From positions 1 through 64,000 of the forward strand of contig JAEEWM010000027.1 in NCBI GenBank assembly GCA_016287385.1: 64,000 bases of DNA, read 5' to 3'. This document shows positions 218-50,420 of the stretch, in pieces. The notes beneath the pieces are model-generated. The model did not search any database. It worked only from the letters and a program-made list of their open reading frames with translations, and was not told where the DNA came from. Every line of letters starts with the position of its first letter. Positions within the stretch are counted from its first letter, which is position 1. The DNA comes from Clostridiaceae bacterium. GTDB taxonomy: Bacteria > Bacillota > Clostridia > Oscillospirales > Acutalibacteraceae. A program made the position numbers and the translations under genes.

Positions 218-222
218 CAACT

Positions 223-398
223 AAATCCGTCCTCTCGGACGGGTAAAATCCGCCTACGGTGGGTGAAATCGTTTCACGGTGAAATCCTCGCTTTGCTCGG
301 GTGATGGGACGGATTTAATTTCACCGAATGCGGTAGCATTCGATTTCACCAATGGCTCAAGCCATTGATTTCACCGCGGCAAAGCCGCGATTTCACCA
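223..398. repeat. Multi-hairpin repeat element with TTTCACC/GGTGAAA spacers
   Basis: An outer inverted repeat AAATCCGTCC (223-232) / GGACGGATTT (307-316) encloses small hairpins. After it come three consecutive hairpins: GAATGC-GCATTC, AATGGCT-AGCCATT and GCGGC-GCCGC. Each is separated by the unit GATTTCACC. The layout is that of a non-coding, possibly mobile, repeat element. No transposase is nearby. Confidence 0.6.
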
Positions 399-1529: not shown

Positions 1530-1536
1530 GCATTCA

Positions 1537-1700
1537 TCGATAGAGGCGCGTGTTATCAAGAGTAGCGGTGCAAAAAAAACGGTCTGCCGAAGACCGCACC
1601 GTGAAAGGGGTATACGCCGAAGAGGTGGGTTGGCTTCCATGCTCTGGTACACGGAAATAAGATTCCGGATACTGTCGCAGAAATGCGGAGTGCTATCAAA
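1537..1700 (+). promoter_or_regulatory. Lysine riboswitch (L box)
   Basis: The leader of the DAP/lysine operon carries hallmarks of the lysine aptamer in order: AGAGGCGCG after the P1 strand, AAGAGTAG, GTGAAAGGGG, CGCCGAAG and a TTGG segment. GATAG at 1539-1543 pairs with CTATC at 1693-1697 to close P1. A terminator follows at 1706. Lysine binding should favour termination and lower dapA-ddh-lysA expression. The assignment rests on motif recognition and on the downstream genes. Confidence 0.88.
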
Positions 1701-1705
1701 TTACT

Positions 1706-2677: not shown

Positions 2678-3655
2678 ATGAAAATTGGCATTTACGGTTA
2701 CGGAAATTTAGGCCGCGGCGTTGAATACTGCGCCGCCCAGAACAGCGATACCGAGGTAGTCGGCGTTTTTACGCGGCGCGACCCGGAAAGTGTACACACG
2801 GTACTCGGCGCAAAGGTTTATAAGGCTCAGGACGCGGCGAGCTTTAAGGAAAAAATCGACGTAATGATAATCTGCGGCGGCAGTGCCACCGACCTGCCGA
2901 AGCTCACGCCGATGCTCGCAAAAGATTTTTCGGTTGTTGACAGTTTTGACACTCACCCTAAAATCCCCGAGCACTTTGCGGCGGTAGACAGCGCGGCAAA
3001 ATCAGCCGGCACGCTGGCGCTCATTTCCGCGGGCTGGGACCCCGGTATGTTCTCGCTTAACAGACTTTACAGTGAAAGCATACTTCCCTGCGGCGAAACC
3101 TATACGTTTTGGGGCAAGGGCGTAAGCCAGGGACATTCTGACGCGGTAAGGCGCATTGAAGGCGTGCTTGACGCAAGGCAGTATACAATACCGAAGGAAG
3201 AAGCGCTTCGCGCCGTGCGTTCGGGCGGCAACCCCGCGCTTACGACAAGAGATAAACATTTAAGAGAGTGCTTTGTCGTAGCGAAAGAGGGCGCCGACCT
3301 TAAAAAAATAGAAAACGCGATAAAAACCATGCCGGATTATTTCGCCGATTACGATACGGTGGTTCATTTCATAACCGCCGAGGAGATGAAGGCGAATCAC
3401 TCCGAGCTTCCGCACGGCGGCTTTGTTATCCGCAGCGGAAAAAGCGGTGAAAACGGCAAGCATAACCATACCGTAGAATACAGTCTTACCCTCGATTCCA
3501 ATCCGGAATTTACCGCCGGCGTGCTTATCGCGGCGGCAAGAGCGGTGTATAAAAAGCACGCTCGCGGCGAATCGGGATGTATAACCCTTTTTGACGTTTC
3601 CCCCGCCGACCTTTCGGCAAAAACGGGTGAGGAACTGAGAAACGCGCTTTTATAA
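2678..3655 (+). CDS. ddh: meso-Diaminopimelate dehydrogenase
   Basis: The enzyme makes meso-diaminopimelate in one NADPH-dependent step from tetrahydrodipicolinate and ammonia, bypassing the succinylase and acetylase routes. The 325 residues fit the family. The N-terminus has a Rossmann motif, GIYGYGNLGRGVEY, and the substrate region includes SAGWDPGMFSLNRL and GGNPAL. An in-frame ATG at 2660 overlaps the dapA end. The ATG at 2678 has GAGGGTGAG as ribosome site and begins directly at the Rossmann strand, so I prefer it. Its place between dapA and lysA under the lysine riboswitch supports the role. Confidence 0.93.
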   Translation: MKIGIYGYGNLGRGVEYCAAQNSDTEVVGVFTRRDPESVHTVLGAKVYKAQDAASFKEKIDVMIICGGSATDLPKLTPMLAKDFSVVDSFDTHPKIPEHFAAVDSAAKSAGTLALISAGWDPGMFSLNRLYSESILPCGETYTFWGKGVSQGHSDAVRRIEGVLDARQYTIPKEEALRAVRSGGNPALTTRDKHLRECFVVAKEGADLKKIENAIKTMPDYFADYDTVVHFITAEEMKANHSELPHGGFVIRSGKSGENGKHNHTVEYSLTLDSNPEFTAGVLIAAARAVYKKHARGESGCITLFDVSPADLSAKTGEELRNALL

Positions 3656-9277: not shown

Positions 9278-10309
9278 TTATTTCAATGTATCCGCTATTT
9301 TGAGAATCAGTTTTTCGGTCTTTTCCCAGCCGAGGCACGGGTCGGTTATCGATTTGCCGTAAATATGGCCGCCGACGGGCTGGCTTCCGTCTTCAATATA
9401 ACTTTCGACCATAATGCCCTTAACGAGCTTTTTGATATCCGCGTTGTGATTTCTGCTGTAAATAACGTCCTCGGCAATTCTTATCTGTTCAAGATATCTT
9501 TTGCCGGAATTGGCGTGATTGGTATCGACTATCGCGGAGGGGTCCCCTACCCCGAGGCTTTCGTACAAATCATAAAGCGAAAGCAGGTCTTCGTAATGAT
9601 AGTTTGATACGCATTTGCCGCTGAAATCGACGTAACCGCGAAGTATGGCGTGAGCCAGCGGGTTGCCGTGGCTTTTTACCTCCCAGCCGCGGTAAATAAA
9701 CATATGTCCGCTTCGCGCCGCCATTACGGAGTTAAGCATAACGTGCATATCGCCGCCGGTCGGGTTTTTCATACCGACGGGCACGTTGAGCCCGCTGGCG
9801 GTAAGGCGGTGCTGCTGGTTTTCCACCGAACGCGCGCCAACCGCGACGTAGGCGAGCAAATCGGACAAATACCTGTGATTTTCGGGATAAAGCATTTCAT
9901 CGGCGCAGGTAAAGCCGTAGTCTTTAAGCGCGTGCATATGAAGCTGTCTTATCGCGATTATACCTTTAAGCATATCGGGTGTGTGCTCCGGGTCGGGCTG
10001 ATGAAGCATACCCTTATATCCCGCGCCGGTGGTGCGGGGCTTATTGGTATAAACGCGCGGTATTATTATTATTTTATCCTTTACTTTATCGGCGACGGTT
10101 TTGAGTCTGCCGATATAATCAAGCACCGCCTCGCTGTTATCGGCGGAGCAGGGTCCTATTATCAGCACGAATTTATCGCTTTTACCGCTGAAAACGTCGG
10201 CTATTTCCCTATCCCTTTCCGCCTTTATTTTTGCCATTTCCTCCGTTACGGGATACTGACCCTTTACGTCCATAGGTATAGGCAGTTTGCGCAAAAAATC
10301 CATATTCAT
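9278..10309 (-). CDS. aroF: 3-deoxy-7-phosphoheptulonate (DAHP) synthase, AroG/F/H type
   Basis: The enzyme joins phosphoenolpyruvate and erythrose 4-phosphate, the entry to the shikimate pathway. The 343 residues match the microbial type I-alpha family. Motifs include LIIGPCSADNSEAVLDY, PRVYTNKPRTTGAGYKG, the metal-site cysteine in FTCADEMLYPEN, VGARSVENQQHR, PVGMKNPTGGD and IVDTNHANSGKRYLEQ. It is the last gene of the aromatic operon, and its ATG overlaps the tyrA stop by 4 bases (ATGA). A second ATG two codons later is also possible. Feedback inhibition is usual in this family, but the specificity cannot be read here. Confidence 0.93.
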   Translation of the reverse strand: MNMDFLRKLPIPMDVKGQYPVTEEMAKIKAERDREIADVFSGKSDKFVLIIGPCSADNSEAVLDYIGRLKTVADKVKDKIIIIPRVYTNKPRTTGAGYKGMLHQPDPEHTPDMLKGIIAIRQLHMHALKDYGFTCADEMLYPENHRYLSDLLAYVAVGARSVENQQHRLTASGLNVPVGMKNPTGGDMHVMLNSVMAARSGHMFIYRGWEVKSHGNPLAHAILRGYVDFSGKCVSNYHYEDLLSLYDLYESLGVGDPSAIVDTNHANSGKRYLEQIRIAEDVIYSRNHNADIKKLVKGIMVESYIEDGSQPVGGHIYGKSITDPCLGWEKTEKLILKIADTLK

Positions 10310-11175
10310 ATATTTTTCCCGTCCTTATTAAACATTTTTCTTCTTTCGGTTGACAGGCGCATCATACTTTTGAGCACGTCGGCGTCGCTTTCCTTTACCG
10401 CGTTATAGAGTTTGTCAAAGCAGGCGCGGTAACAGTCCATTTCATAAAGCAGCGCCTCTTTATTGAGCAGGAAAAGCTCGCTCCACATATCCTCGTTTAT
10501 GTTTGCTATTCTTGTAAGGTCTCTGAATGAATCGCCGGTATAGCTTACAAGATTCGGGTCGCCGTTCGCGCACATGAGCGATACGGCGATACAGTGCGTA
10601 AGCTGAGAAAGAAACGCTATCATTTCATCGTGCTGTTTAGGGTTAAGATAGGATATTCTCTTAAAGCCGAGAACTTCGCCGAGCGCTCTGCATTTTTCTA
10701 TGGCGCCCGGAGTATTGCTGCGCGTGGGCACCACTATAAAATTAGCGTCCTTAAATATGCCGTCGTCGGCGTTTCTTACGCCGTAAACCTCTTTACCCGC
10801 CATCGGGTGCGCGGCGATAAACTCGGCGCCCGCCGGCACATATGAGTTTATTTCCTCAATGACCGCGCCCTTTACGCCGGTAACGTCGGTAAGCAGAGTC
10901 CCCGCCGAAATGTACGAGCCGTATTCCCTCATCCACTCAACAAAAACGTGCGGATAAAGGGCGAAAACGATAATATCGGCGCCCGCTACCGCGTCGCGGC
11001 TGACTTCCACACCGCCCTTTTCGATTATCCCGTTTTCGAGAGCGTAGTCGATATCCGACTGCTCCTTGCTTATCGCGGTAACGTGATATCCTTTTTTTGT
11101 AAGCGCCATGGCGTAACTGCCGCCGATAAGCCCCAAGCCGACTATAAGAATATTACTGTCTTTTTCAAACGTCAT
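10306..11175 (-). CDS. tyrA: Prephenate dehydrogenase
   Basis: The enzyme oxidatively decarboxylates prephenate to 4-hydroxyphenylpyruvate, the branch to tyrosine. The 289 residues have an N-terminal Rossmann fold (ILIVGLGLIGGSYAMAL), the HPMAGKEVYG motif and a helical dimerisation domain with QLTHCIAVSLM. No ACT domain is fused. The start overlaps the aroA stop as ATGA, and its own stop overlaps aroF the same way, so the genes are translationally coupled. Confidence 0.92.
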   Translation of the reverse strand: MTFEKDSNILIVGLGLIGGSYAMALTKKGYHVTAISKEQSDIDYALENGIIEKGGVEVSRDAVAGADIIVFALYPHVFVEWMREYGSYISAGTLLTDVTGVKGAVIEEINSYVPAGAEFIAAHPMAGKEVYGVRNADDGIFKDANFIVVPTRSNTPGAIEKCRALGEVLGFKRISYLNPKQHDEMIAFLSQLTHCIAVSLMCANGDPNLVSYTGDSFRDLTRIANINEDMWSELFLLNKEALLYEMDCYRACFDKLYNAVKESDADVLKSMMRLSTERRKMFNKDGKNI

Positions 11176-12368
11176 TTTACTTCAACCTCTATGCCGAGAT
11201 TTTTGAGAACCTCAAAAAAACCGGGGAAACTTTTGTTTATTGCCTCGGCGCCGCTTACCGCGCCGCCGTAAACCGATAAAAGCACGCAAAGCGCCATAAC
11301 CACTCTGTGGTCGTTATGCGAATCGAGAATACAATCCGGCGCGTGAAGCTTTGCCGCCCTTACGGTAACCTCATCCGCCGACACACGTATATCCGCGCCG
11401 AGTTTTGAAAGCTCTTCTTTCATCGCCTGCGCACGGTCGCTCTCTTTTATTTTAAGGCGTGCCGTGCCGGTAAAGCGCGCGCCGGAAAACGCGGCGGCAA
11501 GCGCAAAGAGAAGCGGCGCTAAATCGGGACAGTCACTCAAATCGTAACTGCCGCCGGAGCTTAGTGTTTTGAAAATCTCTTTATAAACGCGGTCGCCCTG
11601 CGCGGTATCGGGTTTAAGCCCCTTGACACTCACGGCGCCGCCGAGCAGGTTAAACGCCTCAAGCGGCGCGGCGTTTGAATAATCGCCCTCTACGCGGTAG
11701 TTTAACGCATTATACCTCTGATTACCCTTAATATAATATCCGTTTTCGTTTTCGGTTATCTTAACGCCGAAGCGTGACAAAGTCTTTACGGTGATATCAA
11801 TATACGGTTTGCTGAAAACGGGCGTTGTAAACTCTATTTCACTATCGCCTTCAAGAAGCGGAAGCGCAAACATAAGCCCCGAAACGAACTGACTCGATAT
11901 ATCGCCGCGAATACGGTATTTTCCGCGGGAAAGCTTACCTTTTACGGTGAGCGAATCTTCAGAAAGCGAAAACTCTATGCCGTTTTCTTTTGCAATATCG
12001 CCGTAAACCGATAAATCGCGTGCGAAAAGCCGTTTCGCGCCGGTAAATGTGATTCTTTTGCCTGAAATCATACAAAGCGGCAGGATAAAACGAAGCGTAC
12101 TGCCGCTTTCGTTTGCAAATATATTTGTATCGGTTATTTTCTCTGCCGAAAGCCCGCCGAGCGTTACACTGTTTTTGCCGATACGCGCTTTTGCGCCGAG
12201 CGCTTCGAGAGCGCCGAGCGTAGCTTTAATATCATCGCTTTGCTGCACGTTATCGACCCTGCACCCGCCGGACAGCGCCGCGCAGATAAGCGCCCTGTGC
12301 GCCTCGGATTTAGAGGGCGGCGCCGTAACCGCGCCCCGCGCCCTTGACGGTTTTATGTAAACTATCAT
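11172..12368 (-). CDS. aroA: 3-phosphoshikimate 1-carboxyvinyltransferase (EPSP synthase)
   Basis: The enzyme transfers the enolpyruvyl group from PEP to shikimate 3-phosphate. The 398 residues are slightly shorter than the usual 425-430. Visible motifs are PPSKSEAHRALICAALS near the N-terminus, NESGSTLRFILPL, SSQFVSGLMFALPLL, DYSNAAPLEAF, CPDLAPLLFALAA, KESDRAQAM and the terminal DHRVVMAL. The start is fused to the aroQ stop as ATGA. It is cytoplasmic. Confidence 0.94.
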   Translation of the reverse strand: MIVYIKPSRARGAVTAPPSKSEAHRALICAALSGGCRVDNVQQSDDIKATLGALEALGAKARIGKNSVTLGGLSAEKITDTNIFANESGSTLRFILPLCMISGKRITFTGAKRLFARDLSVYGDIAKENGIEFSLSEDSLTVKGKLSRGKYRIRGDISSQFVSGLMFALPLLEGDSEIEFTTPVFSKPYIDITVKTLSRFGVKITENENGYYIKGNQRYNALNYRVEGDYSNAAPLEAFNLLGGAVSVKGLKPDTAQGDRVYKEIFKTLSSGGSYDLSDCPDLAPLLFALAAAFSGARFTGTARLKIKESDRAQAMKEELSKLGADIRVSADEVTVRAAKLHAPDCILDSHNDHRVVMALCVLLSVYGGAVSGAEAINKSFPGFFEVLKNLGIEVEVK

Positions 12369-12805
12369 TTGTTTTCTCCGATATATTGAGTCAAAAAATC
12401 GAGCGCCTCAATATACCCCTCAAATCCCTTGCCGGAAACGGTCTTTACGCAGGCGGCGCGAACGAAGCTTGTTTTCCTGAACTCTTCCCTGCCGTTTACG
12501 TCGGAAATATGCACCTCGACCGCCGGGATACCAACGGCTTTGAGCGCGTCAAGCAAAGCGATACTTGTGTGCGTGTACGCCGCGGGGTTTATGATTATAC
12601 CGTCAGCGTTCTTGTACGCGCTTTGGATTTTATCGACGAGGTCGCCCTCGTGATTTGACTGGTACACCTCGACTTCGACCCCGCTTTTTACGGCGCGGTC
12701 GCCTATCATGGCGACAAGGTCCTTATAGGTCTTGTTACCGTATATCTCCGGCTCGCGAATGCCGAGCATATTGAGATTTGGTCCGTTCAACACTAAAATT
12801 TTCAT
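12365..12805 (-). CDS. aroQ: Type II 3-dehydroquinate dehydratase
   Basis: The enzyme dehydrates 3-dehydroquinate to 3-dehydroshikimate. The 146-residue length and the motifs LVLNGPNLNMLGIREPEIYG, NPAAYTHTSIALLDAL, EVHISDVNGREEFR and a GKGFEGYIEAL tail identify the dodecameric type II enzyme. The catalytic tyrosine lies in EIYG, the histidine in EVHISD. Both ends overlap neighbours by 4 bases. Confidence 0.95.
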   Translation of the reverse strand: MKILVLNGPNLNMLGIREPEIYGNKTYKDLVAMIGDRAVKSGVEVEVYQSNHEGDLVDKIQSAYKNADGIIINPAAYTHTSIALLDALKAVGIPAVEVHISDVNGREEFRKTSFVRAACVKTVSGKGFEGYIEALDFLTQYIGENK

Positions 12806-14040
12806 AACAGTAAATCTTTCCTTATTATTTCGACGGCGGAATCTATATCCGCGTCGTTTTTAACTATTACGTCCGCCGCGCTTCTGTAAAGGGCTATACG
12901 CTTTTCGTAAAGGCGTTTGAGCGCGTCGCCGCTTGAAGAAAGCGGCCGGTCGGGCGAAGATTTTAACATTTCAAGCGGCCGGTCAAGAAAGTAAAGCTTG
13001 CCGTTAGATTTAAGCGCAAGCAGGTTTTTATCCACCGTAACGGCGCCGCCGCCCGTGGCAATAACAGAGTGATTATTCTGCGAAATAAGCGCGATAACTT
13101 CGCTTTCAAGCGCCCTGAAATACTCCTCACCGCGGCTTTTTATGATTTCGGCGGGGGTTTGCCCCGTTTTTTCGGTTATCTGTTCATCCGTATCAAAAAA
13201 CCTCATACCGAGCTTTTCCGAAAGCGTTTTACCCACTGTGGTTTTGCCGCAGGTCGGCATACCGATAAGCACTATATTGAGCTTTTCTCTTAAAATATCG
13301 CCGTAGATTTCTTCAAGGCGGCTTTTATCAATGCTCCCGCCGGTAAAAAGCTCGGCGGCGCCCACCGCCTGCGCGACCAGCATATAAAGTCCGCCCGTCG
13401 CTTTTATCCCACGCCGCTGTGCCTCGAGCACAAGGCGGGTTTTAAGGGGGTTGTATATCACATCGACGACCGCTTCAAGAGCACCGAACGGCAAAAGTCC
13501 TATCGGCGCGCTTTGACTGTCCGGAAACATACCGCACGGCGTGGTGTTGATTATAACTTCGGCGTTGTTTTCACGGTCTGCCGCCTCGCCGTAGGTGATA
13601 AAGCCGTCTTTTTTATCGCGGGAAACCCGAAGCACCTCTTTTGCGCCGAGATTTTCCGCTACAAAGAGCGCGGTCTTAGAGGTTCCGCCGCTCCCTAAAA
13701 CGAGCACTTTTTTGCCGTTTATTTCAATACCGTTTTTCTTTATCAGAGCGGTAAGACCGAGCGCGTCGGTATTAAAGCCCGATAGCTTACCGCCTCGGTT
13801 TACCACTGTATTTACCGCGCCTATTTTCTCTGCCGCGGTATCGATTTCGTCAAGAAATCCGATGACCCGCGTCTTATACGGAACGGTCACGTTTATGCCG
13901 CAGAACTCGCGTTTTTCGAAAAACTCTTCAAGCTTTTCCCGTTCTATCTCTTTAAGAGTGTAATCGTAGTCCGCCAGTCTGCCGTGTATTTCCTTTGAAA
14001 AACTGTGGGTAAGCTTTTCGCCTATAAGTCCGTAAAGCAT
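12802..14040 (-). CDS. aroE-aroK: Fused shikimate dehydrogenase and shikimate kinase
   Basis: One 412-residue chain carries two consecutive pathway enzymes. Residues 1 to about 245 are AroE: THSFSKEIH for shikimate binding, the catalytic lysine K56 in NVTVPYK, D92 in GFNTDALG, and the NADP-binding loop VLGSGGTSKTA near 114-124. From about 253 the chain is AroK, with Walker A GMPTCGKTT (K266), DTDEQITEKTG and ATGGGAV. There is no stop or frameshift between them and no long linker. It starts one base after the aroC stop and overlaps aroQ by 4 bases. Substrate handover from dehydrogenase to kinase is a natural idea but is inference. Confidence 0.93.
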   Translation of the reverse strand: MLYGLIGEKLTHSFSKEIHGRLADYDYTLKEIEREKLEEFFEKREFCGINVTVPYKTRVIGFLDEIDTAAEKIGAVNTVVNRGGKLSGFNTDALGLTALIKKNGIEINGKKVLVLGSGGTSKTALFVAENLGAKEVLRVSRDKKDGFITYGEAADRENNAEVIINTTPCGMFPDSQSAPIGLLPFGALEAVVDVIYNPLKTRLVLEAQRRGIKATGGLYMLVAQAVGAAELFTGGSIDKSRLEEIYGDILREKLNIVLIGMPTCGKTTVGKTLSEKLGMRFFDTDEQITEKTGQTPAEIIKSRGEEYFRALESEVIALISQNNHSVIATGGGAVTVDKNLLALKSNGKLYFLDRPLEMLKSSPDRPLSSSGDALKRLYEKRIALYRSAADVIVKNDADIDSAVEIIRKDLLL

Positions 14041-14041
14041 A

Positions 14042-15130
14042 TCACGCCAGCCAATCTGTGCCGAAGCGCACCGTTAAAGAGTCGGCAAGAGCCAGCGCCG
14101 TAACCGAGTCGACAACTACGCGCGCCCTGTGAGCAATACACGGATCGTGTCTGCCGGCGGCGGTTATATTCGCCGCGGTCATGTTTTTCATATCGACCGA
14201 TTTTTGCTCTTTGCATATAGTCGGAGTCGGCTTGACGGCGCATCTGAAAACTATCGGCATACCGCTTGTAATGCCGCCGAGCACGCCGCCGTTATTGTTG
14301 CTCGCGGTTTTAATTTCTCCGTTTTCTATTACAAACGGGTCGTTAGCATTACTGCCCTTCATATCCGAAATGCCGAACCCCGCGCCGAACTCTATCCCTT
14401 TAATTGCGGGAACGCTGAAAACCGCGTGAGATATTTTACCCTCAACTGTATCGAACCACGGCTCGCCGACACCCGCCGGCATACCGTAAACCGCGGTTTC
14501 GAGAATTGCGCCTATACTGTCGCCCTCATTTGCGGCGGCAACTATTTTATCGCGCATTTTGCTTTCAACGCCGGTATCGAGCACAGCGAAACGCGCGTCT
14601 GAGAGATAAGCGATATCCTGCTTAAAATCGGCAAAGTCCCTGTCCGAAACGCCGCCGAGTTTCTTTATATGCGTGCCGATATAAACGCCCTTACGGTTTA
14701 AGGCGGGTATAACAATTCCCGCCGCCGCGACTAACGCCGCGGTTATTCTGCCGCTGAAGTGTCCGCCGCCGGACTTCGCCTCAAAGCCGTGATATTTCTG
14801 TCTTGCGGTAAAATCCGCGTGAGAGGGGCGCGCTATATCGTCGAAAGCCGAATAGTCCTCTTGTCTTATGTCGCCGTTTTCAATAACTATACAAATCGGC
14901 GTACCGCAGGTAAAGCCGTTTACCACGCCGCTTAATATACGGAATTTATCCGCCTCTTTGCGCGAAGTGGATATCGCGCCGGCGGGGCGGCGAAGAAGAA
15001 GCTGTTTTTCGATGAACGCGCAGTCCACCTTTACTCCCGGAGCGATACCGTCAAGCACCGCGCCTATCGCCTCGCCGTGGCTTTCGCCGAAAAGCGTAAC
15101 AGTCAAACTGTCACCGAACGTATTTTTCAT
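14042..15130 (-). CDS. aroC: Chorismate synthase
   Basis: The enzyme converts EPSP to chorismate using reduced FMN. I start it at the ATG at 15130, which overlaps the aroB stop as ATGA with AGGAAG upstream; a GTG nine bases earlier is less likely. The 362 residues include FGESHGEAIGAVLDG, RRPAGAISTSRKEAD, SGGGHFSGRITA, GVLGGITSGMPIVFRCAVKPTPT and GRHDPC near the end. It lies between aroB and the aroE-aroK fusion. Confidence 0.94.
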   Translation of the reverse strand: MKNTFGDSLTVTLFGESHGEAIGAVLDGIAPGVKVDCAFIEKQLLLRRPAGAISTSRKEADKFRILSGVVNGFTCGTPICIVIENGDIRQEDYSAFDDIARPSHADFTARQKYHGFEAKSGGGHFSGRITAALVAAAGIVIPALNRKGVYIGTHIKKLGGVSDRDFADFKQDIAYLSDARFAVLDTGVESKMRDKIVAAANEGDSIGAILETAVYGMPAGVGEPWFDTVEGKISHAVFSVPAIKGIEFGAGFGISDMKGSNANDPFVIENGEIKTASNNNGGVLGGITSGMPIVFRCAVKPTPTICKEQKSVDMKNMTAANITAAGRHDPCIAHRARVVVDSVTALALADSLTVRFGTDWLA

Positions 15131-16134
15131 TTTTCCCACTTCCTTTTTATTTCCCGCAAGAAGGTATCGGTTTTTTGAGCGTCAAAACGATAGCTGCCTA
15201 TTTCGTCGACAAAAACGGTGGTTATGCCGCTTCCGTCGGCTTTCTTATCGTGAAGTACCGCCTGTTCGATTTTCTCGAAGTCAACCTGAGTCGCTGTAGG
15301 CAGATCAAGCTTTTCGAGCGCGGATTTTATACGCTTTCGCGCTTCATCCGAGCACATATAAAGCATCCCGATACCGACGCACTCGCCGTGCAGTAAATCG
15401 TGATCGGCAATTTCTATCGCATGTCCGAGCGTATGCCCGAAATTAAGCACGCGGCGAAGTCCCGATTCGTATTCGTCCGCCTCGACCACCGATTTTTTGA
15501 TATTTACCGCTCTTGTCACTACTTCTTCTATTTTTTCCTTTGCTCTTCCCTCTTCAAACACATTAAAAAGGTCGCTGTCAAGCGTGGCGGACATTTTCAG
15601 CGCCTCGGCAAGTCCGTTTGATACCTGGCGTCCGTCGAGCGTCAGGAGCGTTTCAACGTCGATAAGCACACGCTTCGGCGGATAAAACGCACCGACGGTA
15701 TTCTTGTATCCATCGAAATCTATCGCTGTTTTACCGCCCACCGAGGAGTCCACCTGAGAGAGCACCGTAGTGGGTATATTGTAAAAATCTATACCGCGCA
15801 TATAAGTCGCCGCGGCAAATCCCGCAAGGTCGCCGACCACGCCGCCGCCTACCGCCACTACGCAGTCACTCCGCGTAAAATCGGCGCCGAGAAGCGCGTC
15901 AAGTATCCTCGCGTAGTTTTCAAAGCTCTTTGACGCCTCGCCGTCAGGTATTACCAGAATAAGCGATTCGAGCGACGCGTCAGCGACGGTGTTCGCATAT
16001 TCTTTCGGTACGCCGCTGTCGGTTACCACCAGCACCTTACGGTCAAGGTTCAGATATTTGCCTGCTTTTTTCAGCGCACCGCGTTCAATTACGATATCGT
16101 ATCCGCCAAGCGCGGTTTTTATGGGTATTATCAT
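15127..16134 (-). CDS. aroB: 3-dehydroquinate synthase
   Basis: The enzyme cyclises DAHP to 3-dehydroquinate with NAD and a divalent metal. The 335 residues show the nucleotide site VVAVGGGVVGDLAGFAAATYMRG and the NIPTTVLSQVDSSVGGKTAIDF stretch. The metal ligands are an aspartate/glutamate in VEADEYESGLR and histidines in NFGHTLGHAIE and LLHGECVGIGM. The ribosome site is AGAGGT before the ATG at 16134. Confidence 0.95.
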   Translation of the reverse strand: MIIPIKTALGGYDIVIERGALKKAGKYLNLDRKVLVVTDSGVPKEYANTVADASLESLILVIPDGEASKSFENYARILDALLGADFTRSDCVVAVGGGVVGDLAGFAAATYMRGIDFYNIPTTVLSQVDSSVGGKTAIDFDGYKNTVGAFYPPKRVLIDVETLLTLDGRQVSNGLAEALKMSATLDSDLFNVFEEGRAKEKIEEVVTRAVNIKKSVVEADEYESGLRRVLNFGHTLGHAIEIADHDLLHGECVGIGMLYMCSDEARKRIKSALEKLDLPTATQVDFEKIEQAVLHDKKADGSGITTVFVDEIGSYRFDAQKTDTFLREIKRKWEK

Positions 16135-16144
16135 AAATTACCTC

Positions 16145-17233
16145 TTATATACGTATTTCTTTTTCAAAACTTCCGAGCACCTTTATATCGGAACAGCAGC
16201 TTTTAAGAGATGAAAGCATCTCTTTGCCCTTTTCGCCGTTAATATTGCCCTCGCCCTCGGCGTAAAAATAATAACTCCAGACAAGTTCTTTAGTAGGTCT
16301 GCTTTTAAGAGCGCGCAGGTTAAAACCGTATTCACCGATGAGCGATACCGCTTTTGCAAGGGCACCCGCCGAATTCTTAACCGTAAAAAGCATTATAAAT
16401 CTGTTATCGGTTTTCGCCGGCGATTTTGCCGCGCGCGTGAATACCGCGAAGCGGGTAGTATTGCTCGAGCTTTGGTTAATATGCTTTTCAAGTATCCGAA
16501 GCCCGAATTGTTCCGCCGCCGACGTACTGCCTATCGCCGCGATATCGGTGCGGCCCGACTCGCTTACGTGCTTTGCGGCGACAGCGGTATTTACCGCCTC
16601 AACCGTTTCAAAGTTATGCTCTCTTATATAGTCGGCGCATTGACTGAGCGCCTGGGGATGACTTATAACGGTTCTGATACCGTCGACGTGCGCGCCCTTT
16701 ACGGCGAGAAGGTTCTGTATAATCTCGGTTTCATAGACGCCGTTTATAAAAAGCGGTCCGAAAAAGCAAAGATCCATAACGGTTCCCACGTCGCCGCCCA
16801 CGCTGTTTTCAAGCGGTAAAACCACACTGTCGCACTCGCCCGACACCACCGCGTCATACGCCGCCTTGAAATCCTTATATCCGATAAGCTCCGCATCGGG
16901 AAAAATCTTTGACGCCGTGATATCCGCAAACGCGCCGCGCGTTCCGCTGAACGATACGCGCATACCGTCAAGCAGGCGGTGCTGAAACGATTTTGAGATG
17001 TCCATTACCGATTTCTGAAATCCGACGTAATATGACTTGTAATCTTCGTTTTCTATGTATTTGCAGTTTTTCTCGATAAGCGCCTTTTCGCGCGCGGGGT
17101 CCTCAACGCAAAGTCCGTGCTCGCGCTTGTATTCCGCTATTACGCTTACCGCGTTCATACGCGCCTCAAACAGCGCCGCCATCTTTTTATCGGTTTCGTT
17201 TATCTTCTTTCTTGCTTCATCGAATTTTGACAT
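16145..17233 (-). CDS. pheA: Bifunctional chorismate mutase / prephenate dehydratase (P-protein)
   Basis: The enzyme converts chorismate to prephenate and then to phenylpyruvate. Residues 1 to about 85 form an AroQ-class chorismate mutase (FDEARKKINETDKKMAALFEAR, then SVIAEYKREHG and DPAREKALIEK). About 95-275 form prephenate dehydratase (VSFSGTRGAFADITA, ENSVGGDVGTVMDL, and the TRF motif in SNTTRFAVF). A C-terminal ACT domain at about 278-350 carries AGALAKAVSLIGEYGFN and SRP, the usual phenylalanine allosteric site. It follows the aminotransferase gene with a one-base gap. Confidence 0.95.
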   Translation of the reverse strand: MSKFDEARKKINETDKKMAALFEARMNAVSVIAEYKREHGLCVEDPAREKALIEKNCKYIENEDYKSYYVGFQKSVMDISKSFQHRLLDGMRVSFSGTRGAFADITASKIFPDAELIGYKDFKAAYDAVVSGECDSVVLPLENSVGGDVGTVMDLCFFGPLFINGVYETEIIQNLLAVKGAHVDGIRTVISHPQALSQCADYIREHNFETVEAVNTAVAAKHVSESGRTDIAAIGSTSAAEQFGLRILEKHINQSSSNTTRFAVFTRAAKSPAKTDNRFIMLFTVKNSAGALAKAVSLIGEYGFNLRALKSRPTKELVWSYYFYAEGEGNINGEKGKEMLSSLKSCCSDIKVLGSFEKEIRI

Positions 17234-17234
17234 T

Positions 17235-18416
17235 TTATTTTTTGTATTCCTCCATTAAAGCCGCAAAAGCCGGAAGTGCTTTTTCAATCATTTCATATTT
17301 AACACAGTATGCTATTCTCGCATAGCCCTCAATGCCGAAGCTGTCGCTCGGCACCATAAGTATCTCGTGCTTTTTCGCCCGCTCGCAGAACTCGTTGCCG
17401 TCACCCGAAGGCGATTTAACAAAAAGGTAAAACGCGCCGTTCGGCTTTGTAACGGTATATCCCATTTCCACAAGTCCGTTATAAAACAGCGTGCGGTTCT
17501 TATCGTAAGCGGATATATCCGAGGTATCGTAAACACAGTTTTTTATCACGTACTGCATAAGACTCGGCGCACAGACGTAGCCCATACTCCTGCCCGCTCC
17601 GCAGACCGCGGCGTATATATCGCGGTTGTTTTGTGCCGAAGACGGTACAAATATATATCCTATTCTCTCACCCGGCACCGAAAGCGATTTACTGAACGAA
17701 TAATCTATCACGGTGTTTTCATAGTAGTTTGGCATGAACGGCGACGGCTCGCCGTAGCAAAGCTCACGGTACGGCTCGTCACAGATGAGATATACAGGGT
17801 GCGAAAGCCGCGCGGATTTTTCCCTTAAAAGCGCGCCGAGTTTTTCCGCCTCATGTGCGCTTAACGTCGCGCCCGTGGGGTTATTCGGGAAGTTTATCAG
17901 CACCGCGGCGGTTTTCCCGTTTATTGCCGCTTCAAGAGCGCCGAGATCAAGGGTAAAATCAGGCGGAAGAGTGGGAACGGTTATTTTGACTGCTCCCGCG
18001 TTTTCAATAAACACGCTGTATTCCGGAAAATACGGCGATAAGACTATAACCTCGTCGCCCGGCTCGCAAATGGCTTTAAGGGTGACGGTGAGCGAAGCCG
18101 CCGCGCCGCAGGTCATATAAATATCATCGCTTGAAGCGGGTGTGCCGAACCGTTTTTCTATCGACTGAGCGACCGCCTCGCGCACGCCGAGGTCGCCCTG
18201 TGCGGAGGTATATCCGTGAAGGGATACGCTGTCACGTCCGGCGACAAGCTCCTTTATTGCGTCGTTTACGCTCTGCGGCGCGGGTATACTCGGATTCCCG
18301 AGGCTGAAATCAAATACGTTATCCTCGCCGAGAAGCGCTTTTCTGCCCCTCGAATACTCAAATATTTCCCTGATTTTAGACGGTTTTTTACCGAGGGCTG
18401 TCATTTTTGCATTCAT
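17235..18416 (-). CDS. Class I/II PLP aminotransferase, probably aromatic
   Basis: The 393-residue fold-type I aminotransferase has the FSLGNPSIPAPQSV N-terminus, a glycine-rich CGAAASLTVTLKAI segment, the NFPNNPTGATLS motif, the PLP-contacting DEPYREL and the Schiff-base lysine in YSFSKSLSVPGERIGY. It is the first structural gene of the aromatic operon, directly after the Phe/Tyr attenuator. It is therefore the likely last step, converting phenylpyruvate and hydroxyphenylpyruvate to Phe and Tyr. I start it at 18416, where CGGGAGAG precedes the ATG; the longer frame to 18464 would run through the terminator hairpin. Substrate specificity is inferred from context. Confidence 0.85.
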   Translation of the reverse strand: MNAKMTALGKKPSKIREIFEYSRGRKALLGEDNVFDFSLGNPSIPAPQSVNDAIKELVAGRDSVSLHGYTSAQGDLGVREAVAQSIEKRFGTPASSDDIYMTCGAAASLTVTLKAICEPGDEVIVLSPYFPEYSVFIENAGAVKITVPTLPPDFTLDLGALEAAINGKTAAVLINFPNNPTGATLSAHEAEKLGALLREKSARLSHPVYLICDEPYRELCYGEPSPFMPNYYENTVIDYSFSKSLSVPGERIGYIFVPSSAQNNRDIYAAVCGAGRSMGYVCAPSLMQYVIKNCVYDTSDISAYDKNRTLFYNGLVEMGYTVTKPNGAFYLFVKSPSGDGNEFCERAKKHEILMVPSDSFGIEGYARIAYCVKYEMIEKALPAFAALMEEYKK

Positions 18417-18448
18417 AGTTTTCTCTCCCGAAAATGTAATAAATAAAA

Positions 18449-18484
18449 AGTCCGCCGTCTGCAAATAATTGCTAAACGCGGACT
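18449..18484 (-). terminator. Attenuator terminator of the aromatic operon
   Basis: On the minus strand AGTCCGC-GTTT (18484-18474) pairs with AGAC-(G)-GCGGACT (18460-18449), with an inner GCAA-TTGC extension. A TTTTTATTTATT tract follows. Its left arm overlaps segment 2 (18485-18479), which can instead pair with the distal part of the leader peptide gene. Confidence 0.85.
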
Positions 18485-18549
18485 GTCCAACCTATTTCAA
18501 AACACAGCAAATTATTCCGCTGCATTCTTAAAAGAGGGCAGGCAGTCCG
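18479..18549 (-). promoter_or_regulatory. Antiterminator pairing in the aromatic operon leader
   Basis: CGGACTG at 18549-18543, inside codons 14-16 of the leader peptide, is complementary to CAGTCCG at 18485-18479. The latter is the left arm of the terminator, so the two hairpins exclude each other. A ribosome paused on the Phe/Tyr run (codons 6-12) would leave the first segment free and permit the antiterminator. Confidence 0.8.
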
Positions 18550-18589
18550 TGCTAAAGTAATAATAAAAGTAAAACTCTTTTCCGAACAT
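18512..18589 (-). CDS. Phe/Tyr-rich leader peptide of the aromatic operon
   Basis: A 25-codon open frame starts with ATG at 18589 after an AAGGAGG ribosome site and ends with TAA at 18512. Codons 6-12 read Phe-Tyr-Phe-Tyr-Tyr-Tyr-Phe, and codons 2 and 20 are also Phe. It is placed between a strong promoter and a rho-independent terminator, ahead of a Phe/Tyr biosynthetic operon. This is the classical design of a translation-coupled attenuator, as in the enterobacterial pheA and trp leaders. The peptide itself probably has no function. No T-box motif is seen. Confidence 0.88.
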   Translation of the reverse strand: MFGKEFYFYYYFSTDCLPSFKNAAE

Positions 18590-18618
18590 ATCCGTTGCCT
18601 CCTTTTTTTGATAGGTCT

Positions 18619-18647
18619 ATATTACTCCCATTCAAGCCGTTTGTCAA
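18619..18647 (-). promoter_or_regulatory. Promoter of the aromatic operon
   Basis: On the minus strand TTGACA (18647-18642), 17 bases, TAATAT (18624-18619). Transcription should start near 18612, about 23 bases before the leader peptide ATG. Confidence 0.82.
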
Positions 18648-18702
18648 GGAAAAAAAGAGTATTTATCGACATTTGCGGCAATTTATCGCCGCGCAATATT
18701 GA

Positions 18703-18762: not shown

Positions 18763-19866
18763 TTGAAAAAAGTCGTTTTGGTTTTTTGCGCCGTTTTGCT
18801 TCTTTTGCCGATCGGTCTCTACGTCGCCGCGAAGCAGGAAGAGAACGCGGTTATAAGCATTTCGAGCATCGGCGGCAACCCCGATGATTACACTTACGTT
18901 ACCGTAAGCGCCGAAAACAACCCGGGGATAGAAAAATGCGCTTTTACTTTAAGCTACGATACGTCGGCGCTGAAATATGTAAGCAGCCATTCCGGCGCGT
19001 ACGGCAATTACTCGGTTTACGACCATTCCGGCGACGGCGAACTCACCTTCGCGTTTATTGACGGCAAGGATGTAACCGGCAACTGCGATGTGATAAACCT
19101 CGCGTTCAAAATAAAAGCGGACGCGGCAACGGGCAAATACGACATAAGCTTCAAAAAAACATATTTTGCGGATAAAAACGATAAAAAAATCAGCGTCAAA
19201 GCCGAAAACGGAACCGTTGAAGTTAAAAAACCCTGCGCGGGCGAGCACACTTTCGCGGGCGACCGGATAAAAATGCTGTCGGTTCCCACCTGCACAGAAG
19301 ACGGCGTCAGGGTCACGGCATGCAGTTTTTGCGGTCACATAAAAAAAGAAACAGTAGCCGCACCCGGACACGTCGCGGGGAAAGAATTCTCGGTAAGTTA
19401 CGTATCCAAAGACGGCAAGGCAATAGTTATTTCGCAGACCTGCAAGACCTGCGGCGAGCGTGTGAACGTAATCGTCAACGACAGCAGCGGCATGAAGCCG
19501 GTCAATACGGACGATCTCAACCGCCTTGCAAAAACTTTTGGCGACACCTCTGTTTCCAACCTCGTTTATTTCCTTAACGGCAGTAAAACTTATCCGGATA
19601 TCCCGAAGGATGCGGACGACAGCTACATGGAAGAATATATCAAAGGCGAAATTAAGGTTATAAACAGCACGGCGGCGGTGGAAGAAAAATCACTCAGAAA
19701 CGCAAACGGAACCGTAAACGTGGACGTCGCGGTTGACAGACTGCTTCGCACCTTCTTCGGCGAAGATAAAAAGAGCGGTATTATGGGTGAGTTAAAAAAA
19801 GCCGAAGTGGCAAACGAGTTGCCCGTCAGACTTATCAGAAAACTATTTTCTTTCGGAATAGGTTAA
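18763..19866 (+). CDS. Secreted cohesin-like domain protein
   Basis: The start is the TTG at 18763, preceded by GAGGTG, giving 367 residues. The N-terminus is a signal peptide (KKVVLVFCAVLLLLPIGLYVAA). About residues 30-155 match a cohesin-type beta sandwich: TVSAENNPGIEKCAFTLSYD, a W/F-rich middle and INLAFKIKADAATGKYDI. A short cysteine-containing repeat of the PTCTEDGVRVTACSFCGHIKKE type follows, a form common in clostridial surface proteins. The C-terminal 150 residues are unrecognised and hold no dockerin. A role in cell-surface or extracellular binding is likely, but its partner is unknown. Confidence 0.7.
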   Translation: MKKVVLVFCAVLLLLPIGLYVAAKQEENAVISISSIGGNPDDYTYVTVSAENNPGIEKCAFTLSYDTSALKYVSSHSGAYGNYSVYDHSGDGELTFAFIDGKDVTGNCDVINLAFKIKADAATGKYDISFKKTYFADKNDKKISVKAENGTVEVKKPCAGEHTFAGDRIKMLSVPTCTEDGVRVTACSFCGHIKKETVAAPGHVAGKEFSVSYVSKDGKAIVISQTCKTCGERVNVIVNDSSGMKPVNTDDLNRLAKTFGDTSVSNLVYFLNGSKTYPDIPKDADDSYMEEYIKGEIKVINSTAAVEEKSLRNANGTVNVDVAVDRLLRTFFGEDKKSGIMGELKKAEVANELPVRLIRKLFSFGIG

Positions 19867-50300: not shown

Positions 50301-50347
50301 AAAAAAAGTATAGGGGCACACTTAAACTGTACGGTTTGAGTGTGCCC
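50301..50347 (-). terminator. Terminator of the ZTP riboswitch
   Basis: On the minus strand GGGCACACT (50347-50339) pairs with AGTGTGCCC (50322-50314), followed by a T run. Its left arm uses the GGGCA that is part of the aptamer's conserved 3' strand, so ligand binding and termination should exclude each other. Confidence 0.85.
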
Positions 50348-50415
50348 AGACGGTCGGCATATATAATCCCTTGCTCCCATGTGGTTTTCCACTTTTCCGT
50401 CAGTCATAAGGGACA
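50341..50415 (-). promoter_or_regulatory. ZTP/ZMP riboswitch (pfl motif) before the purine operon
   Basis: The minus-strand leader reads GTCCCTTATGACTGACGG, a hairpin GTGG-AAAA-CCAC, GGGAGCAAGGGA and, after a short linker, GCCGACCGTCTGGGCA. These are the conserved parts of the pfl motif: TCCCTT pairs with AAGGGA as P1. ZTP/ZMP accumulates when 10-formyl-tetrahydrofolate is short, and binding normally turns expression on. This fits an operon containing both formyl-dependent enzymes, PurN and PurH. Confidence 0.88.
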
Positions 50416-50420
50416 CGCCC

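Follow-up and report, generated by a model that had tools for sequence, protein, structure and literature searches.

The window analysed here, a stretch of 64,000 nucleotides, carries on its minus strand a leader that very probably acts as a ribosome-mediated transcription attenuator of a phenylalanine/tyrosine operon and would work through four RNA segments. The first-pass annotation had claimed a Phe/Tyr leader-peptide attenuator on an aromatic operon, and this claim is strongly supported, as conservation extends to the small frame, its run of Phe and Tyr codons, both stems and the gene context. Likewise, the individual elements it had named, i.e., a promoter, a 25-codon frame with AAGGAGG, the FYFYYYF run, the complementary CGGACTG and CAGTCCG stretches and a rho-independent terminator, were all found in place between 18647 and 18440. 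Since the layout recurs in relatives, it goes beyond what would be expected by chance.

Architecture of the leader

Two sets of leaders are used throughout: 49 aligned leaders from the same genus, the window's own included, and a wider set of 78, made up of these 49, three held-out leaders from the genus and 26 from outside it. The elements of the window's leader are as follows, with the evidence for each in brackets.

18619..18647, minus strand: promoter, TTGACA-17-TAATAT (10 of 12 consensus matches)
18596..18605, minus strand: segment 1, the Shine-Dalgarno region of the leader, AAAGGAGGCA, which can pair with 18540-18530 (fold, shuffles, swap test)
18512..18589, minus strand: leader peptide frame, MFGKEFYFYYYFSTDCLPSFKNAAE, 25 codons, with an ATG start and the Shine-Dalgarno sequence AAGGAGG (homologous frames in the 49 aligned leaders)
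18554..18574, minus strand: putative control codons FYFYYYF, codons 6-12 (run composition over the 78 leaders)
18541..18549, minus strand: segment 2, 5' arm of the predicted antiterminator, CGGACTGCC, within the frame (counted pairs)
18530..18540, minus strand: distal codons, TGCCCTCTTTT, complementary to the Shine-Dalgarno region of the leader (fold, shuffles, swap test)
18501..18526, minus strand: middle helix between segments 2 and 3, with the stop codon near its apex (fold, z -2.2 in this leader)
18478..18488, minus strand: segment 3, GGACAGTCCGC, 3' arm of the antiterminator and 5' arm of the terminator (pair counts of both stems)
18440..18455, minus strand: segment 4, the 3' arm of the terminator, GCGGACT, and the U tract (pair counts, fold)

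The core of the predicted switch is the complementarity of CGGACTG (18549-18543, codons 14-16) to CAGTCCG (18485-18479). The latter overlaps the left arm of the terminator, AGTCCGC (18484-18478), whose partner GCGGACT (18455-18449) is followed by the U tract, so that the intrinsic terminator spans 18484-18440, upstream of the first gene. An upstream TTGAC[ATC] with a -10-like site is present in 75 of the 78 leaders. As a general feature, the middle helix was not significant over the 78 leaders (mean z -0.74).

The probable operon downstream

The leader is followed by nine adjoining genes, which occupy 18416 to 9278, lie no more than 10 bases apart and lead to both Phe and Tyr. Their spacing suggests that they form one operon. 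All names below are best matches; for the dehydratase, the dehydrogenase-kinase, aroA and the prephenate dehydrogenase they derive from best match and context, because the scores fall under the NCBIfam curated cut-offs.

17235..18416, minus strand: aminotransferase (PRK06836 family)
16145..17233, minus strand: pheA, chorismate mutase-prephenate dehydratase (dehydratase models under cut-off)
15127..16134, minus strand: aroB
14042..15139, minus strand: aroC
12802..14040, minus strand: fused shikimate dehydrogenase-shikimate kinase, aroE-aroK (both under cut-off)
12365..12805, minus strand: aroQ, type II dehydroquinase
11172..12368, minus strand: aroA (under cut-off)
10306..11175, minus strand: tyrA-like prephenate dehydrogenase (under cut-off)
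9278..10309, minus strand: DAHP synthase (aroFGH type)

The genome assembly amounts to 1.86 Mb, and its nearest named relatives include the rumen assemblies Clostridia bacterium RGIG7807 and Ruminococcaceae bacterium RUG14768. Beside the aromatic operon, at 18763-19866 on the plus strand, lies a divergently transcribed gene for a protein with a cohesin domain (E 8e-14).

Conservation within the genus

PheA was found in 62 of 70 same-genus genomes, mostly uncultured assemblies, and related genomes are taken as separate in this and all other counts. Upstream regions were inspected up to the limit of each locus, and 49 of the 62 loci had a complete leader and were aligned. The 13 loci dropped (L016, L019, L042, L044, L052, L059, L061, L064, L065, L066, L067, L068 and L069) comprise five that meet a contig edge, three with an unrelated PheA in another cluster, four that lack a matching leader and one with a different leader. 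Alignment of relatives' leaders was the check that had been suggested for the earlier reading, and it bore out the core of that reading: Phe and Tyr codons are conserved, and both stems show compensatory changes.

A covariance model built from the 49 leaders matches 52 of the 70 genomes. The three matched outside the training set (G042, G047 and G060) all have Phe/Tyr leaders; two of these precede an aminotransferase, and the G047 stretch stops at a contig edge. Where the aminotransferase does not precede pheA, the leader stands directly ahead of pheA itself (L023, L028, L037, L049 and L051). The 18 unmatched genomes include seven without a PheA match, three whose PheA lies at the end of a contig, three whose PheA is unrelated and five that have the operon without a matching leader (L016, L019, L065, L061, which keeps a terminator-like remnant, and L066, which has a different leader). 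Given these five operons, the leader is dispensable, and L016, L019, L065 and L061 look like natural losses. By eye, promoter-like sequence remains in L016, L065 and L061. The L066 leader (genome G051), within 330 bases before pheA, has 62 codons, the run FYYFYFYF and different arms.

The leader peptide as a coding frame

In the 49 aligned leaders, Phe (204) and Tyr (185) together make up 389 of the 1093 residues after the first Met, and Trp is absent. The ratio of TTY to TTR codons is 204:14. Stops number 32 and 122 in the other two frames, whose Phe plus Tyr content is 9.9% and 14.2%, against a mean of 8.4% in 14 genes of the window. This conservation suggests that the frame is translated. 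Over the 78 leaders the Phe plus Tyr content is 34.7%, with a single Trp (in L209); for the 29 later leaders this content is partly so by construction, since the model used to select them includes the Phe/Tyr codons and a frame with at least four Phe or Tyr was required.

The frame also runs over segment 2, and in some leaders this arm is read in a different frame, as ETAR (L051) or GLSV (L038 and L055). Segment 2 is thus conserved as RNA, whatever frame reads over it.

The codons themselves suggest that the leader responds to starvation, and does so for both amino acids. The run ahead of segment 2 is mostly F-Y-Y-F, and at least two Phe and at least two Tyr are present in 73 of the 78 leaders. 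It might be argued that the attenuator senses one amino acid in practice and that the other codons are passengers. There is precedent for this in the actinobacterium Corynebacterium glutamicum, where the aroR leader, upstream of aroF, likewise places Phe-Tyr-Phe codons before an aromatic operon and is reported to respond to limitation of Phe and not of Tyr (PMC11802643). The exchange of Phe and Tyr at several positions of the run in the 78 leaders would also fit such a reading. By contrast, the retention of both kinds of codon in the 73 leaders, together with an operon that serves both end products, argues for sensing of both, and we regard sensing of a single amino acid as a serious candidate that is nonetheless somewhat doubtful.

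A separate observation concerns arginine. A CGA codon stands directly ahead of the last three or four control codons in 22 of the 78 leaders, L015 among them; the window's own leader has no CGA in that place. CGA accounts for 33 of 63 arginine codons in the leaders vs 8 of 281 in genes, a comparison in which the leaders come from many genomes and gene usage was counted in the 14 window genes.

Antiterminator and terminator

Both stems were scored on a sequence-only alignment of the 49 leaders, against slid versions of each stem and 500 shuffles. The antiterminator (segments 2 and 3) comprises 15 pairs, columns 75-89 with 139-153, of which 72.8% of cells are paired, vs 22-38% when slid, and its covariation score of 0.213 (0.131 shuffled) was reached in none of the 500 shuffles. 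Double-change pairs and further pair types in this stem were not above the shuffles, of which 440 and 401, respectively, had as many or more, and the stem is imperfect: of the 49 leaders, 23 lack pair 79:149 and 40 lack pair 83:145, and pairs 75:153, 76:152, 87:141 and 89:139 are unpaired in 19 to 34. The terminator (segments 3 and 4) has nine pairs, with 89.8% of cells paired vs 35-48% when slid and double changes in six of the nine, a level that five of the 500 shuffles reach. When RNAalifold was run unprompted, it returned the terminator only and did not find the antiterminator.

Pairing between segments 2 and 3 was also compared with dinucleotide shuffles leader by leader. The duplex reached P<=0.05 in 37 of the 49 aligned leaders and 22 of the 29 further ones, with arm 3 misplaced in at least L012, L023, L026, L027 and L037. 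In G457, from another family of the same order, the arms have changed to CUUUCUG and CAGAAAG. The antiterminator pair counts in the 78-leader test (at least six in 34 of 78) are unreliable, and the choice of terminator there is rough.

In the window, the terminator folds at -20.0 kcal/mol (z -4.1). A transcript that starts at segment 2 and stops short of segment 4 adopts the antiterminator (-39.1 kcal/mol, z -5.6). With segment 4 added, little energy separates the terminator fold (-40.5) from the antiterminator fold (-40.0), which suits a kinetic switch. The 2:3 and 3:4 pairings are mutually exclusive, with segment 3 common to both.

Segment 1 and the four-segment layout

The earlier annotation had envisaged only three RNA segments, and this part of it is rejected. 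In the fold of the 5' part of the leader, the Shine-Dalgarno region AAAGGAGGCA (18605-18596) pairs with the distal codons at 18540-18530. Over the 78 leaders, pairing of the Shine-Dalgarno region with segment 2 and its 3' neighbours is significant against shuffles (mean z -2.7; 85% of leaders below -1.65). When segments were swapped for those of other leaders, the cognate 1:2 pairs had a mean percentile of 0.80 and the 2:3 pairs one of 0.72, vs 0.44 for the 1:3 combination, which nobody had proposed and which served as a control. Thus, cognate pairs are stronger than swapped ones, and the Shine-Dalgarno region and the distal codons co-evolve. The resulting 1:2, 2:3, 3:4 layout is the classical one, so that the three-segment model is set aside. 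That segment 1 should be the ribosome site, without the control codons, is possibly a variant feature.

This pairing suggests another way in which the leader might work. If 1:2 hides the ribosome site, control could act mainly through translation of the leader, with the rate of initiation, and not stalling, setting termination. The inclusion of the Shine-Dalgarno region in 1:2 and its co-evolution with the distal codons would agree with this; such control, however, leaves the Phe/Tyr run and its match to the products of the operon unexplained, and we consider it improbable.

Proposed mechanism

Under ribosome-mediated attenuation, a shortage of charged tRNA-Phe or tRNA-Tyr would cause the ribosome to stall with one of codons 6-10 in the A site, just upstream of segment 2. 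The stalled ribosome would hold segments 1 and 2 apart, 2:3 would form before segment 4 is made and the RNA polymerase would read on into the operon. If both tRNAs were plentiful, the ribosome would travel across segment 2 as far as the stop codon, or would leave so that 1:2 closes; in either case, 3:4 would form and transcription would end. Without translation of the leader, 1:2 would also favour termination.

The geometry of the leaders is consistent with this model. The ribosome footprint reaches 15 nt beyond the first P-site base, and with such a footprint a stall with a codon up to the tenth in the A site leaves the window's segment 2 free. A Phe or Tyr codon placed so as to leave segment 2 free occurs at least once in every one of the 49 leaders. 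The distance that separates segment 2 from the stop codon has a median of 22 nt (quartiles 19 and 25; the 5 nt of L027 is wrong, because its arm 2 was mis-picked), which implies that a ribosome at the stop codon covers segment 2 in some leaders only. In the remaining leaders, 1:2 would have to close behind the ribosome.

Relation to known systems

No T-box covariance model matches the leader, and no other Rfam element does so either, as none of 4227 Rfam models gave a match in 18380-18700 at E<=5; six further loci had no Rfam match over cut-off. T-boxes are used elsewhere in the genome (eight matches, six over the Rfam cut-off, including those before pheS and before trpB-like and leuA-like genes), which might suggest that a T-box, or another leader that binds tRNA or a metabolite, regulates the operon and that the small frame is incidental, but with no Rfam match and a small frame conserved as a coding frame this is very improbable. 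As one of these T-boxes precedes pheS in the same genome as the leader (L002, 1501-1731), Phe genes are served there by both a T-box and a leader peptide. The window also contains a lysine riboswitch (1533-1703, plus strand), a Gut-1 RNA (218-290, plus strand) and a ZMP/ZTP riboswitch (50337-50417, minus strand).

Instead, the leader resembles the trp and pheA leaders of enterobacteria, which likewise have control codons in a leader frame and segments that pair as I:II, II:III and III:IV. In those leaders, segment 1 is the stretch with the control codons. The clostridial leader differs in that its segment 1 is the Shine-Dalgarno region, in that it has two kinds of control codon and in that its segment 2 lies inside the frame, ending at the median distance from the stop codon given above. 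For the E. coli trp leader, two alternative folds of similar stability are described (PMC1183508).

Other likenesses are more distant. In Acholeplasma, the uORFC-13-1 motif, a predicted uORF with one or more Phe codons beside a terminator upstream of aroF, is likewise found on a DAHP synthase gene; it is reported only from Acholeplasma and environmental sequences (PMC8632094). Ribosome-mediated attenuation in Bacillota has been described for other amino acids and other genes, namely predicted hisS/hisZ leader peptides in bacilli (PMC2965389), a predicted hisZ leader peptide in C. difficile (PMC4833913) and an ilv-leu leader peptide in Staphylococcus aureus (PMC5794164). Such control is also reviewed for Gram-positives (PMC6123439) and described for Actinobacteria (PMC1262725), and putative attenuators before tyrA operons, Bacillota included, are tabulated (PMC1173090). 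Searches of the open-licence literature, in its accessible parts, yielded no description of a Phe/Tyr leader peptide for Clostridia; the survey of attenuation in bacteria by Lopatovskaya et al. (2010) might list related leaders. We regard the element as an attenuator of the classical ribosome-mediated kind; as a Phe/Tyr family it is new to Clostridia, and it has no match in Rfam.

Although the principle of ribosome-mediated attenuation has long been known, the rumen Clostridia are a little-charted place for it. Covariation over many genomes indicates Phe/Tyr attenuation of the enterobacterial type in these uncultured bacteria, alongside a T-box before pheS, and the covariance model now covers a leader that no Rfam family matches. 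Moreover, the 78 leaders, with natural losses, arms in other frames and different first genes, form a natural series that could be used to test how attenuators originate, how they move and how they read two amino acids.

Distribution outside the genus

In a sample of the family, 29 of 300 genomes matched the model at E<=0.01: four belong to the genus, four are false (G123, G237, G325 and G347) and 21 genomes from 14 other genera have the leader. In a sample of the class, which the named relatives identify as Clostridia, 6 of 391 genomes matched at E<=0.001, i.e., the source genome and five from four other families. No match was obtained in 271 of the 300 family genomes and 385 of the 391 class genomes under strict filters, which may miss weak matches.

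Examination of 31 matches outside the genus gave 26 with a leader and an aromatic gene behind it and five with neither, which are the weak matches L203 (E 6.8e-5), L205, L206, L207 and L208 (E 0.003-0.007); two further weak matches, G125:C9 (E 0.0057) and G017:C20 (E 0.0056), were left out of this inspection. The first gene behind the 26 leaders is an aminotransferase in 11 cases, pheA in 7, a DAHP synthase of the aroFGH type in 7 and one of the B. subtilis type in 1.

We tentatively propose, with a little less than even confidence, that these leaders form an attenuator family through the Clostridia in which one peptide would read two tRNAs and the Shine-Dalgarno site would serve as the protector strand, so that one stem may both stop re-translation of the leader and commit the transcript to termination. 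The family would move between operons headed by an aminotransferase, pheA or a DAHP synthase, and the rare CGA ahead of the control codons in many lineages would be a possible pacing signal.

Finally, 80 further loci were drawn on. Six of these (L071-L076) belong to the genus and duplicate loci of the main set, and L120-L150 were left out. In the 43 loci L077-L119, surveyed for Phe/Tyr-rich frames and by eye, no comparable leader was found upstream of the aminotransferase except a different, Tyr-only one in L119. Short Phe-rich frames occur upstream in L083 and L109. In L119, from the Bacilli assembly RUI057, the 400 bases before position 3001 contain a leader frame with Tyr only, which ends in SSYYYDYYYYR and is accompanied, by eye, by a terminator-like stretch; it precedes a relative of the same aminotransferase and looks like a separate invention.
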